This document shows positions 3,848 through 55,317 of a stretch of DNA of 64,000 nucleotides, one piece after another (position 1 is the first letter of the stretch; each line of letters opens with the position of its first letter). Location of the stretch: NCBI RefSeq assembly GCF_002157895.1, contig NZ_CP021377.1, positions 3,038,001-3,102,000 of the forward strand. The letters are read 5' to 3'. Position numbers and translations under genes: made by a program. This DNA comes from Oceanisphaera profunda. GTDB lineage: Bacteria; Pseudomonadota; Gammaproteobacteria; Enterobacterales; Aeromonadaceae. Under the pieces are notes generated by a model. That model saw nothing but the letters and a program-made list of their open reading frames with translations, was not told the origin of the DNA and made no database searches.

Positions 3848-6679
3848 ATGAATAACTTAAAAGTGAGGAGCGGGCGTTTGGCGGAGAAAAAGCTGTTTAC
3901 TCCCATGTCTGGTTTACAGCGCCTGTTTGAGGCCGGGTTGATCACCATTATTTTATTGGCGATCTTCATGATGTTGTCCTTGGTGTCTTATCACCCCTCG
4001 GATCCGGGCTGGTCACAAACTGCGTGGGGCGGAGAAATTCGTAATGCCGCCGGTCCTGCCGGTGCTTGGTTGGCCGATATTTTGCTGTTCTCTTTTGGCT
4101 TTTCAGCTTATGCGGTGCCGTTGTTTATGGTGCTGATTGGCTGGTTAACCTTATGGCGCCCAAGGGCGTTAAGTGACATTTGTTACTTAACCTTAAGCCT
4201 GCGCATTATCGGATTTTTAATGCTGCTGCTGAGTGTCTTAACCTTGGCCAGCATGAACTTGGGCAACATTTACTACTTTTCATCCGGTGGCTTAATTGGC
4301 GACATGTTGGCCTCGGCCATCGCCCCTGTCTTTGGCTCACTGGGCACCACTTTATTGCTGTTGTGTGGCTTTGCCACTGGCGTTACCTTTTTTACCGGTT
4401 GGTCTTGGTTGCTGATTGTGGAGCGCCTCGGGGCCGGTGTGGTCAATGCGCCGCAGTTATTAAGTCAAGTGCCGCAGCGTATCGTCGACTGGCAAAGTAA
4501 TTTACGTGGTTCACAGGAAAATGTGCCACTGGCGGCAACGACCAGCTCGACGCAAAGCTCCGGCAAATCAGTGACGGGCCCTGAGTCGGCGAATACCACC
4601 GCAGAAGACTCCGATTCCAGTTCAGGCTTTGTGAGCTGGCGCCGGTTTAAAGAGCGCTTGAGTGGCACCGCTGACGAAGCAGATTACGTCCCGCAAGCTG
4701 GCCGTGAATATGAGCAAGACGACCCGCTGATGGCACCTCTGCCAGCTGCACCTAAGCGTGCTTTACTGCAAAAGAAGGCGCCACCGATGCGTAAAGAGCC
4801 GGTGTTTAATGCCAACCATGAACCAGATGTGGACTTAGAGGCGGCCAGCTCGATGGCGGCGGATGACTTTATGGACACCGATGATTTTCTGGATGCGGAA
4901 GATTTTTTAGCGGCTGCGAGTGTCAATAAGCCTGCTCGTGTGCCGCAGCAAGCAGCAGCACCTACTCAACAATCACCGATTCAACAAGCAGCGCCGCAAG
5001 CACGCCCGCAGGCGATGCAACCGCCCGCAGCGCAGCCTATGGCAACCTTAGCGCAAGCGAATGGCTGGCCAGAAGACGACGAGGAGCTGGATTTGCCTTG
5101 GTTAAAAGATGATGAAGCTGTGCCTCATGCACCTGCCACACGGGTGGCAGCTGTGCCGCCTAGAGCGCAACGCAGTGTTAGCCCTTTACCTTCGTTTGAG
5201 TTACTGGATTTACCCAAGCCGCGCCAGCATACGGTGAGTGAGGCAGAGTTAGAACGCATTGCACGCTTAGTTGAGGCTAAACTTGCGGACTATAACGTAC
5301 AAGCCAACGTAGTGGGCGTGTATCCGGGGCCGGTGATCACCCGTTTTGAATTGGACTTAGCGCCGGGTATTAAGGTGAGTAAAATTGCCAGCCTAGATCG
5401 TGACTTGGCCCGTTCATTGTCAGCGATCAGCGTGCGGGTGGTAGAAGTTATCCCGGGTAAGCCTTATATCGGCCTAGAATTGCCCAACACGCGCCGAGAA
5501 ACCGTGTATTTGCGTGAGGTAATCGACAGCGAAGCCTTTAGAAATAGCCAACATCCGTTAACCATGGTGCTGGGTCAAGACATTGCCGGCGAGCCGGTGG
5601 TGGTGAACTTGGCGAGAATGCCCCATGTATTAGTGGCGGGCACCACCGGCTCCGGTAAGTCGGTGGGCGTGAACGTGATGATCTTGTCGATGTTATATAA
5701 AGCCACGCCGGAAGAAGTGCGCTTTATTATGATAGATCCCAAGATGTTGGAGCTGTCGGTTTACGAAGGTATTCCGCATCTACTCACCGAAGTGGTCACC
5801 GACATGAAAGATGCGGCCAATGCGCTGCGCTGGTGTGTGGGTGAGATGGAGCGCCGCTATAAACTGTTGTCTTCGGTAGGGGTGCGTAACCTGCAAGGCT
5901 ATAACACCAAGGTACAAGAGGCGATTGATGCGGGTGAGCCAATCCGTGATCCACTGTGGGATCCAACTCAGTCTATGGATACCTATCCGCCGGCACTGGA
6001 AAAACTACCCCATATCGTGGTGGTGATTGATGAATTTGCCGACATGATGATGATAGTCGGTAAGAAAGTAGAAGAGCTAATTGCGCGTATTGCCCAAAAG
6101 GCCCGTGCCGCAGGTATTCACCTGATTTTGGCTACCCAGCGACCCTCGGTGGATGTGATCACCGGCTTAATTAAAGCCAACATTCCAACGCGTATGTCAT
6201 TTCAGGTGTCGAGCAAAATAGACTCGCGCACCATCTTAGACCAACAAGGGGCTGAGTCCTTGTTAGGCATGGGTGACATGCTGTACTTACCCGCCGGTGA
6301 TAGCACGCCCACGCGGGTGCACGGTGCCTTCGTGGATGACCATGAAGTGCACAAGGTAGTAGCGGCATGGAAAGAGCGGGGCGAGCCCAATTATATCGAA
6401 GATATTTTAAGTGGTGACGTGGGCCCGGAAGGCTTATTACCAGGAGAAGTAGCGGAAGAGGGCGACGATGCACCGGATCCCTTGTTTGATGCTGCGGTAG
6501 CTTATGTCGTAGAGACGCGCCGCGGCTCTATCTCTGGGGTGCAACGTCAGTTTAAGATTGGTTACAACCGCGCCGCTCGTTTAATCGAACGAATGGAGCA
6601 ACTTGGCATTGTGAGTGCGCCTATGGGTAGCGGTCAACGTGAAGTATTGGCACCTCCGCCAGTTAGGGAGCGCAATTAA
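3848..6679 (+). CDS. ftsK: DNA translocase FtsK
   Basis: Septal DNA pump that resolves chromosome dimers and links division to segregation. The N terminus has about four membrane segments within the first ~200 residues. A Pro/Gln/Ala-rich acidic linker (about 220-450) is much shorter than in E. coli, so the 943-residue total compares with ~1,330. The motor domain has Walker A GTTGSGKS (598-605) and Walker [12 protein letters not shown]. It ends in a gamma winged-helix domain ([21 protein letters not shown]) that reads KOPS sites. The ATG at 3848 has no Shine-Dalgarno sequence; a TTG at 3878 (reading [11 protein letters not shown]) lies seven bases after AGGAG and may be the true start. The stop abuts the lolA ATG. 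Confidence 0.96.
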
Positions 6680-20646: not shown

Positions 20647-21006
20647 TGGTGGAGCTGGCGGGATTTGAACCCGCGTCCGAAAAACCTACATCGTCGGTAC
20701 TACATGCGTAGTCAGTCATTACATTCGCCATCTGCTGCGGACAGACACGCCACAGAATAACTAGCCTAAATTAGTTTTAATGCTTCCACCGTCAGGCACG
20801 ATTTCCACACGATTCTGTGAGATATGACCTTCCAATTCCCTAAGTCACAGACAAGCTAGGGTAGAAGGGCTCTAACAGGTTATTAAGCTGCTAGTGCGTA
20901 GTTTTCGTCGTTTGCGACTATTTTTTTGCGATTTTTTAACGAGGCCTATCGCACCTCGGCATGCACCTAGGAGTTCGAGAATCTCGTCGAATCCAGAATC
21001 AGCCCC
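20647..21006 (-). ncRNA. ssrA: Transfer-messenger RNA (tmRNA, SsrA)
   Basis: 360 nt RNA that rescues stalled ribosomes with SmpB. The 5' end GGGGCTGATTCTGGATTCGA (complement of 20987-21006) and the 3' end CCAGCTCCACCA form the tRNA-Ala-like domain. The T-arm GGGTTCAAATCCCGC-like segment sits just inside the 3' end. The tag reading frame, complement of 20883-20915, reads GCA AAC GAC GAA AAC TAC GCA CTA GCA GCT TAA. It encodes ANDENYALAA, identical to the E. coli degradation tag, and a second TAA follows. smpB is directly upstream on the same strand. Confidence 0.98.
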
Positions 21007-35600: not shown

Positions 35601-35954
35601 TTACTATACCCCTTCGCGGAGCAGTAAGTTCGAAGCCGTAAGTTAGGGCCACTGATTAGTCCATAGGGCTAGGTTTTTGTAGGCGATCACTTGTTCTCGT
35701 ATTTCGCCGAAGGCGGAACCGATGACCACACCACAAAGCTGTTTTCGCAACGGAATCCACGGAAGAACGCGGAAAATAGTGCTCAAGTCTGACAGGGATA
35801 ATTCAGCGCCGAGCGCCAAGCTAAATAAAAGACGGTGTTTGTCTTTCAGCTCGACGCGGTGTTTTTGCCCTGACGTAAACCGAGCACATTTTACTTAGAT
35901 TGAAATGAGACCGTCCACCGAAACCGTTTACCCAGATAGATTGGAATACAGATT
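35601..35954. repeat. Intergenic repeat cluster between ftsH and folP
   Basis: No gene is seen. The stretch contains copies of three repeat types also found at 1143-1291: TTGTAGGCGATCACTTGTTC... (35677-35719), CGGAATCCACGGAAGAACGC... (35749-35779) and AGCGCCGAGCGCCAAGCTAA (35805-35826). The order of the three types is reversed relative to the first site. folP and glmM may start from a promoter in the last 60 bases. Confidence 0.75.
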
Positions 35955-38728: not shown

Positions 38729-38815
38729 GCCGTGGTGGTGGAATTGGTAGACACGCTATCTTGAGGGGGTAGTGCCTGTATGGGCGTGCGGGTTCAATTC
38801 CCGCTCACGGCACCA
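38729..38815 (+). tRNA. tRNA-Leu (GAG)
   Basis: 87-nt class II tRNA with encoded CCA. The acceptor GCCGTGG pairs with TCACGGC. The anticodon stem is CTATC/GGTAG with loop TTGAGGG, so the anticodon is GAG at 38763-38765. The long variable arm is TGCCTGTATGGGCGT, and the T-arm is GCGGG-TTCAATT-CCCGC. It matches E. coli leuU in sequence and place. Confidence 0.97.
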
Positions 38816-38898
38816 ATTATGTTAGCTTGAATTTCAAATTCAAAATAACTATAATTCCACGTAGTTTGAATTAGTTTAATTCTACGTAATTTTTCGGA

Positions 38899-38975
<77 letters not shown>

Positions 38976-39007
38976 ATTCCTCACATTTATTGCAGTGGTG
39001 AAGCTAC

Positions 39008-39044
39008 CCTGTGATAAGTGGTTGTCGTAAGACAACAGTCAGGG
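39008..39044 (+). other. Leader hairpin upstream of rimP
   Basis: CCCTG (39008-39012) pairs with CAGGG (39040-39044) and encloses an inner perfect hairpin GTTGTC-GTAA-GACAAC. It lies between the initiator tRNA and two terminators and could be a processing or regulatory structure. Confidence 0.5.
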
Positions 39045-39055
39045 TCCAGGTGAAT

Positions 39056-39083
39056 AGCCCCGATTTGATGATCGGGGCTTTTT
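39056..39083 (+). terminator. First terminator in the rimP-nusA leader
   Basis: AGCCCCGAT-TTGATG-ATCGGGGCT followed by T5, about 80 bases after the initiator tRNA. It may end tRNA transcripts or attenuate the operon. Confidence 0.88.
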
Positions 39084-39124
39084 GTTATCTGCACGTTAGC
39101 ACCCAATTAGGGTGCACATTCACT

Positions 39125-39144
39125 GGGCTGCGAGCCCTTTTTTT
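39125..39144 (+). terminator. Second terminator directly before rimP
   Basis: GGGCT-GCG-AGCCC followed by T7, ending six bases before the rimP Shine-Dalgarno sequence. A terminator between the leader and the first gene suggests attenuation of rimP-nusA-infB, which could be sensed by NusA itself (inference). Confidence 0.8.
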
Positions 39145-45748: not shown

Positions 45749-45818
45749 GCGCAGCTTACTTTCCAGCTGAATTAGTGATCGGCTGGAGAAAACATTCATC
45801 TTTTTTGGAGTACACAAG

Positions 45819-46088
45819 ATGTCACTAAATGCAGAAACTAAAGCGCAAATCGTTGCTGACAACGCTCGTGGCGAAGGCGATACAGGTTCTCCTGAAGTAC
45901 AAGTTGCTTTGCTGAGCGCGCAAATCAACCACCTGCAAGGTCACTTCAAACAGCACATCCACGATCACCACAGCCGTCGTGGTCTGTTGCGCATGGTATC
46001 TCAGCGTCGTAGCTTGCTGGACTACCTGAAGCGTAAAGACGTAGTGCGTTACACTGCACTGATCGCTAAATTGGGTCTGCGTCGTTAA
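45819..46088 (+). CDS. rpsO: 30S ribosomal protein S15
   Basis: 89-residue primary 16S rRNA-binding protein. It has the four-helix pattern with [42 protein letters not shown], the conserved [24 protein letters not shown], and [12 protein letters not shown] at the end. The length is identical to the E. coli protein. TTTGGAG lies directly upstream. A terminator separates it from pnp, as in the well-known rpsO-pnp operon. Confidence 0.98.
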
Positions 46089-50675: not shown

Positions 50676-51180
50676 GATGAGCCCTTTAATTTATGATTGG
50701 TAGAATAGTTTTATGGGAATAATTTTTGCCGAGCATAGCCATTACTCATCAGGGTGACTAGCGATTAAGGTTTCAATCGGACAAGTTTGGACCACTGGAT
50801 CAGCGCCGAGCACTCAGCGCTTAGCACCAAGCTCAACAAAGGGCGCTGTTTATCTTTATGCTGTCATCCTATTGAGTGTCAGAATCTCGCTTTGGCTCTT
50901 AGTGACTAAAGACTTTTTTGCCACGGAACGCACGGAAAAATAGTGATCAGAGCTGAATTACATCGGTGAGGGGTGAAGGGTGAAGCGTAAAGGGTGAAGA
51001 GGACGAGCCAACAAGGAGTTTGATATCGACATAGAGCGCGAATGTAGTCGCGCGCTTTAGCCGCGAAATCCGCCAACGGCGGATCTGGACACTAGGCACG
51101 GCCTGTTAGGACGGCCTGTTAGGACGCTCCGTCACACCCAAAATCGGTAAGGGATGAAGCGCAAAACTATTGATAAATGC
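50676..51180. repeat. Repeat cluster between BOF gene and gapA
   Basis: No gene is seen in ~500 bases. In order: a GC-rich arm AGCGCCGAGCACTCAGCGC... (50802-50834); a diverged CTGTCATCCT...CAGAATCTCG copy (50861-50913); TTGCCACGGAACGCACGGAA... (50918-50943); a GGTGAGGGGTGAAGGGTGAA... tract (50965-51002); an ATCCGCC-AAC-GGCGGAT hairpin near 51068-51084; and ACGGCCTGTTAGG repeated exactly twice in tandem (51098-51123). Confidence 0.75.
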
Positions 51181-55136: not shown

Positions 55137-55169
55137 CGCCTACAGGCGCGCCGATCTCTAAAGACCTTC

Positions 55170-55293
55170 TTGCCACGGAATACACGGAACAACACGGAAA
55201 AGTGACCAAATACTGTTAGTTAAACGCTATATAAAGTAATTTTTATCTTTATATAGCGTTTAACTTCGTCTATTTCCGTGTATTCCGTGGCAA
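55170..55293. repeat. 124-base nested perfect inverted repeat
   Basis: Outer arms of 20 bp, TTGCCACGGAATACACGGAA (55170-55189) and its exact inverse complement (55274-55293), enclose inner arms of 19 bp, AGTTAAACGCTATATAAAG (55218-55236) and its exact inverse complement (55247-55265), around a 10-base loop. The outer arm sequence is a dispersed repeat with relatives at 1190, 35749 and 50918. The structure could form a long cruciform or RNA hairpin. It lies ~70 bases upstream of the photolyase-operon promoter. Confidence 0.9.
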
Positions 55294-55317
55294 AAATAGC
55301 TGTTAACGTCTTTTAAC

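Follow-up and report, generated by a model that had tools for sequence, protein, structure and literature searches.

A hairpin of Oceanisphaera profunda as a probable gene-free copy of a dispersed palindromic family associated with GxxExxY nuclease genes

The nested hairpin that lies between two protein genes in the window (the whole 64,000-nucleotide stretch of Oceanisphaera profunda DNA that was analysed) is probably, on balance, the gene-free side of a partnership of the REPIN/RAYT kind in which the protein is a PD-(D/E)XK nuclease. The observations behind this reading are the existence of a dispersed family, the structure of its ends, their intergenic placement, the bracketing of GxxExxY genes by arrays of the same kind, the match between protein and unit, the enrichment of the gene where the elements abound, and the absence of the window copy at orthologous sites.

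The hairpin is built as the preliminary description had it, with a 20-bp outer and a 19-bp inner pair of arms, both exact; between outer and inner arms, 28 bases of the left side and 8 of the right side are unmatched (Table 1). Fewer than one such structure would be expected by chance, since random equal-base sequence of 64 kb should contain about 7e-6 inverted repeats that are perfect over 20 bp and enclose a loop of 3-120, and as RNA the hairpin has a computed folding energy of -61.7 kcal/mol (z of -11.6 relative to 200 shuffled sequences that keep the dinucleotide content). The copy is non-coding, and an Rfam search of the window gave no family at the element. The only Rfam matches in the window are a tmRNA, an S15 leader, a rimP leader and two tRNAs, at 20647-21006 (-), 38729-39144 (+) and 45759-45875 (+). 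An integron attC site was also considered, as the inner arms contain GTTAAAC/GTTTAAC, but the order of these, judged by eye, is opposite to that of attC, and the candidate was set aside.

Table 1. Positions in the window of the hairpin, its parts, its neighbours and related one-sided copies
Feature	Positions	Strand	Remarks
Left outer arm	55170..55189	+	units 1 and 2, CACGGAA, at 55174 and 55183; family consensus
Third unit CACGGAA, left array	55193..55199	+	
Left inner arm	55218..55236	+	private to the window copy
Right inner arm	55247..55265	-	exact complement of the left inner arm
Decayed third unit, right array (AGACGAA on minus strand)	55265..55271	-	from the alignment of right ends
Right outer arm	55274..55293	-	minus-strand units 55274-55280 and 55283-55289
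Left flank CTAAAGAC	55158..55165	+	many copies have a similar, loosely conserved sequence outside them, perhaps a target preference
Right flank GTCTTTTA	55308..55315	+	faces CTAAAGAC
Upstream gene, 92 aa	54858..55136	+	stops 33 bases short of the left arm; presumably YeaC/DUF1315-like
Downstream gene, 322 aa	55432..56400	+	which we take to be DUF523/DUF1722-like
One-sided decayed left end, two units	50919..50939	+	same family
One-sided variant-type copy GCAACGGAATCCACGGAAGAACGCGGAA	35747..35775	+	variant as beside GxxExxY in G010; seen in L091

The outer arm had been described as a dispersed repeat, and the hairpin as possibly a copy of a non-autonomous element, and both statements are supported when the whole genome, a single contig of 3,508,860 bases, is considered, the family being apparently non-autonomous. 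Within the window, the motif of the outer arm recurs one-sidedly and in diverged form at 50921 and at 35748 (two mismatches each), and it also does so genome-wide, and the question of whether the element might be unique in the genome is answered by a multicopy family: a pattern of three CACGGAA units separated by 1-4 bases has 34 forward and 33 reverse exact matches, 67 altogether, against 0 for a reversed control pattern, and a BLAST search found at least 111 places of the element, 40 of 142 first-look candidates having been scored. Within 172,158 bases of the genome that were examined there are 59 left and 63 right ends (at most two substitutions), and 23 convergent pairs of ends less than 400 bp apart, the window copy among them, with 102 to 287 bp between their outer units (median about 119 bp, n = 23). 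With 22 further two-ended copies in these 172 kb, beside many one-sided ones, the proposal that the window copy is the sole complete form and the others its fragments has to be given up.

When the 23 copies are aligned, left and right ends share one consensus, AAA..t.TTTTtGCCACGGAATACACGGAA..ACACGGAAaaa, in which AAA..t.TTTTt is followed by GCCACGGAATACACGGAA and this by a third unit, ACACGGAA, with the AAA some 9-11 bases outside GCC (23 ends on each side); the ends are inverted arrays of units of about 9 bp (CACGGAA). The perfection of the arms had been taken as a sign of recent origin, but because each outer arm agrees with the consensus of the family, their perfection is by itself no proof of recency, and only the inner 19-bp arms are private. 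These inner arms have no other occurrence in the fetched sequence, and BLAST finds the window place alone; in many other copies a common centre like GGTAAGACCTTAC (by eye) stands where the window copy has its own stem, which most likely arose within this copy by template switching inside the palindrome. None of the 23 paired copies lies within a stop-to-stop frame of at least 100 codons (greedy gene set), so that their placement is intergenic, and in 19 of them the folding z is below -4. No target-site duplication was seen across the 23 aligned copies, the window site being complicated by an added deletion.

Empty sites in relatives had been named as a point worth checking, and they exist: the 92-aa upstream gene has an ortholog in each of the 23 genomes of the congeneric sample (in a genus that includes Oceanisphaera pacifica), and in 21 of the 22 other genomes the orthologous site is without the window copy. 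Only the window genome (G000) has an element of the window type downstream of that gene; G010 has at the orthologous place a decayed palindrome and a different downstream neighbour, and the remaining 21 genomes have none of this element type there. The empty sites match the outer context of the element, CTAAAGAC in G022 and GTCTTTAG in G014, the closest relative, but both of these genomes also have at the window locus about 150 bp that G000 is without, and the change in the window is therefore not a clean insertion. The spaces of skp-bamA-rseP differ as well, for the window genome has CACGGAA elements there, G014 none of that unit type, and G022 palindromes of CAACGAAA units; from these differences, together with those beside the 92-aa gene, it follows that closely related genomes gain and lose occupied sites. 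In the scoring of CACGGAA elements G022 came out as nearly free of them, and a PF13366 search detected no GxxExxY gene in it, despite its palindromes of the other unit type. The CAACGAAA-type palindromes of G022 (L239 from 556; skp-bamA and bamA-rseP spaces) resemble those beside the second GxxExxY gene of G010.

The window place in G014 and G022 also has a hairpin followed by T (by eye), absent in G000, whose position the element may have taken over. This, with the very stable fold, would suit an alternative in which the hairpin is not mobile and has been kept because it serves the 3′ end of the upstream gene as an RNA structure or terminator, an explanation to which we give very little credence: the stem is followed by GCAAAAATAG and not by a T run, on which ground an intrinsic terminator was rejected, the same ends recur in dozens of intergenic spaces that have nothing else in common, and the inner stem belongs to this copy alone.

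The elements are unevenly spread in the genus, five of the 23 genomes being rich in them (44, 36, 26, 41 and 36 matches at E up to 0.001) and one more having a single match. The GxxExxY family (PF13366) was detected in four of these five and in none of the 18 others (Fisher p 5.6e-4); the element-rich genome without a detected PF13366 gene, G011 (26 element matches), has a fragmented assembly, 91% complete. The only GxxExxY gene detected in the window genome lies at 785823-786161 of the chromosome, far outside the window and among such elements, and a reading of the flanks places all five GxxExxY genes of the genus inside groups of these palindromes. A separate observation concerns G017, where four near-identical tandem units, about 310 bp apart (L077, 7417-8374), each hold a one-sided CACGGAA array and other repeat sequence.

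The preliminary description had looked elsewhere for the agent, to a REP-associated tyrosine transposase that would mobilise the hairpin as a REP or REPIN. Paired inverted repeats in intergenic space are what that suggestion calls for, and the window genome does have three Y1_Tnp matches, one of them about 1 kb from a full element; but Y1_Tnp occurs in 18 of the 23 congeneric genomes irrespective of the elements, G017 combines 36 element matches with zero Y1_Tnp, and none of 15 Y1 genes is bracketed by arrays of the GxxExxY type. Distribution and flanks thus disfavour the partnership, and of all the explanations weighed here it is the one that we find hardest to credit. The four-helix family PF05635 was likewise tried as partner and rejected, being present in 18 of the 23 genomes with a distribution unlike that of the elements and with different flanking units.

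The association between gene and arrays extends beyond the genus. Among 377 genomes of Gammaproteobacteria, CACAGAG triple arrays were found in 28, with PF13366 in 15 of these carriers as against 52 of the 349 others (p 8e-6), and CACGGAA triple arrays in 19, with PF13366 in 10 as against 57 of 358 (p 4e-4, or 0.001 without the window genome); the Fisher tests, here as within the genus, take genomes as independent, and several of the genomes share a genus. With at least five matches of either array type, the gene is present in 14 of 22 genomes (p 9e-7). The type of array also agrees with the type of gene flank, since CACAGAG arrays are found in 7/7 genomes whose gene has CACAGAG flanks and in 4/22 with other flanks (p 2e-4), a count to which the gene's own arrays contribute, and at five or more such arrays the proportions are 5/7 and 3/22 (p 0.008). 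In about half of the carriers PF13366 was not detected (13 of 28 for CACAGAG and 9 of 19 for CACGGAA). Overall, the gene occurs in 67 of these 377 genomes and in 64 of 398 genomes of Pseudomonadota. By far the most exact CACGGAA triple-array matches among the 377 are those of G299, with 174 forward and 173 reverse.

The linked GxxExxY protein, of 120 residues, matches TIGR04256 with 144.2 bits (cut-off 35) and PF13366 (PDDEXK_3) with 138.8 bits (cut-off 22), entries for which the libraries state no function, and in the literature, as far as its accessible parts go, the name receives passing mentions. E27, E76 and K78 are invariant, and D66 is present in at least 90%, among 40 sequences (alignment A2, without L158, L149, L150 and L153). 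The predicted structure (mean pLDDT 95.3) gave a list of matches topped by nuclease folds, the best being the Cas4-like SSO0001 (Z 10.9, 99 residues, 3.6 Å), with the Holliday junction resolvase Hjc (1gef; Z 8.0, 84 residues, 2.9 Å), for which the likeness may be that of a common arrangement, and the type II restriction enzyme BamHI (Z 7.7) further on; a Z near 8 is a match of fold only. Cas4 proteins are Fe-S proteins, whereas GxxExxY has no cysteine in its invariant or near-invariant columns. A profile search of PDB sequences returned one weak match (E 0.29). By family, invariant residues and modelled fold, then, GxxExxY is a predicted PD-(D/E)XK nuclease, and for a protein of that kind to act alone as a transposase would be unusual.

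What ties this protein to the palindromes is the neighbourhood of its gene. Nine GxxExxY loci come from named genomes, and several of them are tightly enclosed by inverted unit arrays; the bracketing is seen in loci of Aliidiomarina, Halomonas, Billgrantia, KSB1, Daviesbacteria and Parcubacteria. Taking as bracketed a gene with at least two inward units C[AG]CN[AG]AN on each side within 220 bp, a first set, which included 30 loci from the search of the 377 Gammaproteobacteria (67 PF13366-positive), had inward arrays on both sides in 30 of 40 loci and outward ones in 4 of 40; in a second set of 30 loci from the 398 Pseudomonadota genomes (64 positive), most from family f189 and with the prediction written beforehand, the corresponding figures were 27 of 30 and 2 of 30. 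The two-sided criterion was missed by 10 loci of the first set and 3 of the second. Control genes were bracketed by arrays of this type in 0 of 63 cases, made up of PF05635 (0/25, from 30 loci), Y1_Tnp (0/15, from 20 loci) and yeaC-like genes (0/23). A comparison of the best inverted match between left and right flanks with that of mispaired flanks placed 34 of 44 loci above the 95th percentile and 16 above the 99th, a control weaker than the count of units; in this 44-locus set, L149 and L150 repeat L091 and L095, and L157 and L158 are identical in protein, doublets from which the 40-locus set is free. In the corresponding comparison for PF05635 genes, given below, 16 of the 23 yeaC-like loci were used.

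One locus, in Parcubacteria CG1_02_44_31 (L152, about 5990-6430), has the GxxExxY frame and its inverted arrays in frame inside a coding sequence that we take, by its motifs, to be LepA-like; the insertion stands between VRMVYHPD and YILNLIDTPGHVDF, translation runs through the arrays as well, and the host frame is unbroken. To judge by the reading frame, this case supports real movement of the gene-bearing form.

The sequence of the units follows the type of the protein. In the first set, distance between units and distance between proteins are correlated (Mantel r 0.51, p 5e-4, 34 loci), and about equally so in 20 non-redundant loci (r 0.50, p 5e-4). Of the seven bases of a unit, the last is A with proteins that have V-Y-R, G with V-H and GLLE, and T with proteins that have N two places after V and with GFLE. 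Written down beforehand, this rule was right for 26 of the 30 loci of the second set, wrong for three (L216, L230 and L237) and silent for one (L225), and when no rule is applied, a locus and the one closest to it in protein sequence agree in the last unit base in 29 of 30 cases (permutation p 5e-5). In the genera g354 and g357, proteins of the A, G and T types occur in different genomes, each with its own unit type, and host ancestry alone is therefore no explanation of the match.

Two other ways of accounting for the arrays have to be weighed against these data. According to one, the units would be the sites of a separate host or mobile recombinase, and GxxExxY one of several cargo genes with no part in the movement; genes of the four-helix bundle family PF05635 are indeed also often enclosed by arrays, 10 of 30 loci being above the 95th percentile of mispaired flanks. 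Those loci have quite different units, and none of the 25 counted has arrays of the GxxExxY type; moreover, even inside one host genus the unit varies with the GxxExxY protein, a pattern not to be expected from a recombinase shared from outside, and we regard the explanation as distinctly improbable. The PF05635 loci themselves (L096-L125), whose genes are of the IVP/S23p type, often show inverted arrays built from other short units (AGCTGTCAGCT, GTGAGGGGTGAGG, GTGTTGAGT, GGAAGCTGGAAGCT).

According to the other, which we think unlikely, if less so than the first, GxxExxY would be a nuclease of the homing type that recognises the units, cuts pre-existing arrays without a gene and is copied into them by repair, the palindromes having some other origin. 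This would predict both the bracketing and the match of protein and unit, it would account for the genomes that have arrays and no gene (9/19 and 13/28), and the homing endonuclease I-Bth0305I does appear, far down (rank 46), in the Foldseek list. Against it, the inverted arrays face inward on both sides (27/30, with 2/30 outward), as if the gene were the loop of one palindrome, and a second agent would be needed to make and spread the palindromes.

Under the partnership that we favour, GxxExxY may bind or cut the units and thereby move or maintain the palindromes, as we infer from the sequences. The direct repetition of units is unneeded for base pairing and so suggests several protein sites side by side; that the units of an array vary jointly, in step with the type of protein, points to recognition by GxxExxY. 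On this reading the window feature is a complete copy, without coding sequence, of a palindromic element of about 100-190 bp from the dispersed family, each end having three units of about 9 bp and the two arrays being inverted relative to each other, and these units would be putative binding or cutting sites of the GxxExxY protein of this genome, a nuclease of about 120 aa. The gene bracketed by arrays would represent the parent element, and the gene-free palindromes small forms derived from it, which the protein would recognise in trans and which would enter intergenic spaces and be copied or converted in them, in a relation like that of REPINs to RAYT genes. The inversion of the arrays could mean that the nuclease acts on both ends, or else on a cruciform or a single-stranded hairpin, and the spread could have taken place via transposition, cut-and-repair conversion or another route.

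A more general proposal, which we put forward only tentatively and as somewhat less probable than not, is that GxxExxY marks a large class of repeat systems, whether selfish or domesticated, in which a small PD-(D/E)XK nuclease reads short iteron-like units by a protein-DNA code (a unit C-R-C-N-R-A-N whose last base, A, G or T, would be set by the protein clade) and spreads gene-free palindromes in bacterial genomes; the dispersed repeats of the CACAGAG, CACGGAA and CGCAAAG types in many phyla would be its traces, and PF05635, with inverted arrays of its own, a parallel system. The link with the arrays gives the GxxExxY family a testable role and proposes an agent for one class of repeats dispersed in bacteria, and the natural series of protein-unit pairs is one from which the recognition could be decoded.

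In the open-licence PMC literature, no description was found of a link between GxxExxY and dispersed palindromes, nor of PDDEXK proteins with palindromic and dispersed repeats or of four-helix proteins with an inverted repeat, and the literal repeat strings led only to unrelated eukaryotic work. Three known systems nevertheless offer a comparison. With the intervening sequences of 23S rRNA that carry S23p, as in Coxiella (PMC4990558), the likeness is that of a unit of about 430 nt with one small gene within complementary ends, but S23p is a four-helix protein and the unit lies in rRNA, whereas here the link is with a PD-(D/E)XK protein and the copies lie between protein genes; the window copy has neither a PF05635 gene nor a site in 23S rRNA. 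The MITEs of the Correia and NEMIS kinds (PMC2649163, PMC2229807, PMC10969869) are closer in form, being of about 100-190 bp, intergenic, with terminal inverted repeats and a long RNA hairpin, and the window family is itself short, non-coding, multicopy and bounded by terminal inverted repeats; it differs in that its copies showed no target-site duplication, that a parent DNA transposon was not found and that the linked gene is that of a nuclease. The GxxExxY genes with unit arrays of the same type would fit the role of MITE parent, with a transposase activity that is putative.

The closest likeness is to REPIN/RAYT (PMC3116915), in which short intergenic inverted repeats are likewise paired and many per genome, the tied gene is flanked by the same repeats, and one-sided copies are apparent remnants. 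The partner there is a tyrosine (Y1) protein and here a PD-(D/E)XK one, and the ends there are REP palindromes and here arrays of units of about 9 bp that vary with the type of protein; dispersed intergenic pairs are thus common to both, and a repeat-flanked Y1 (HUH) partner is not found for the window family. Because the Y1 partner fails, and because no target duplication was seen and no parent transposon found, the element is filed as a member of neither group, but among dispersed palindromes that are tied to one gene with repeats on its flanks; it works most like REPIN/RAYT and is a MITE in form. If this is true, partnerships of the RAYT/REPIN kind would have arisen more than once, with unrelated nucleases.
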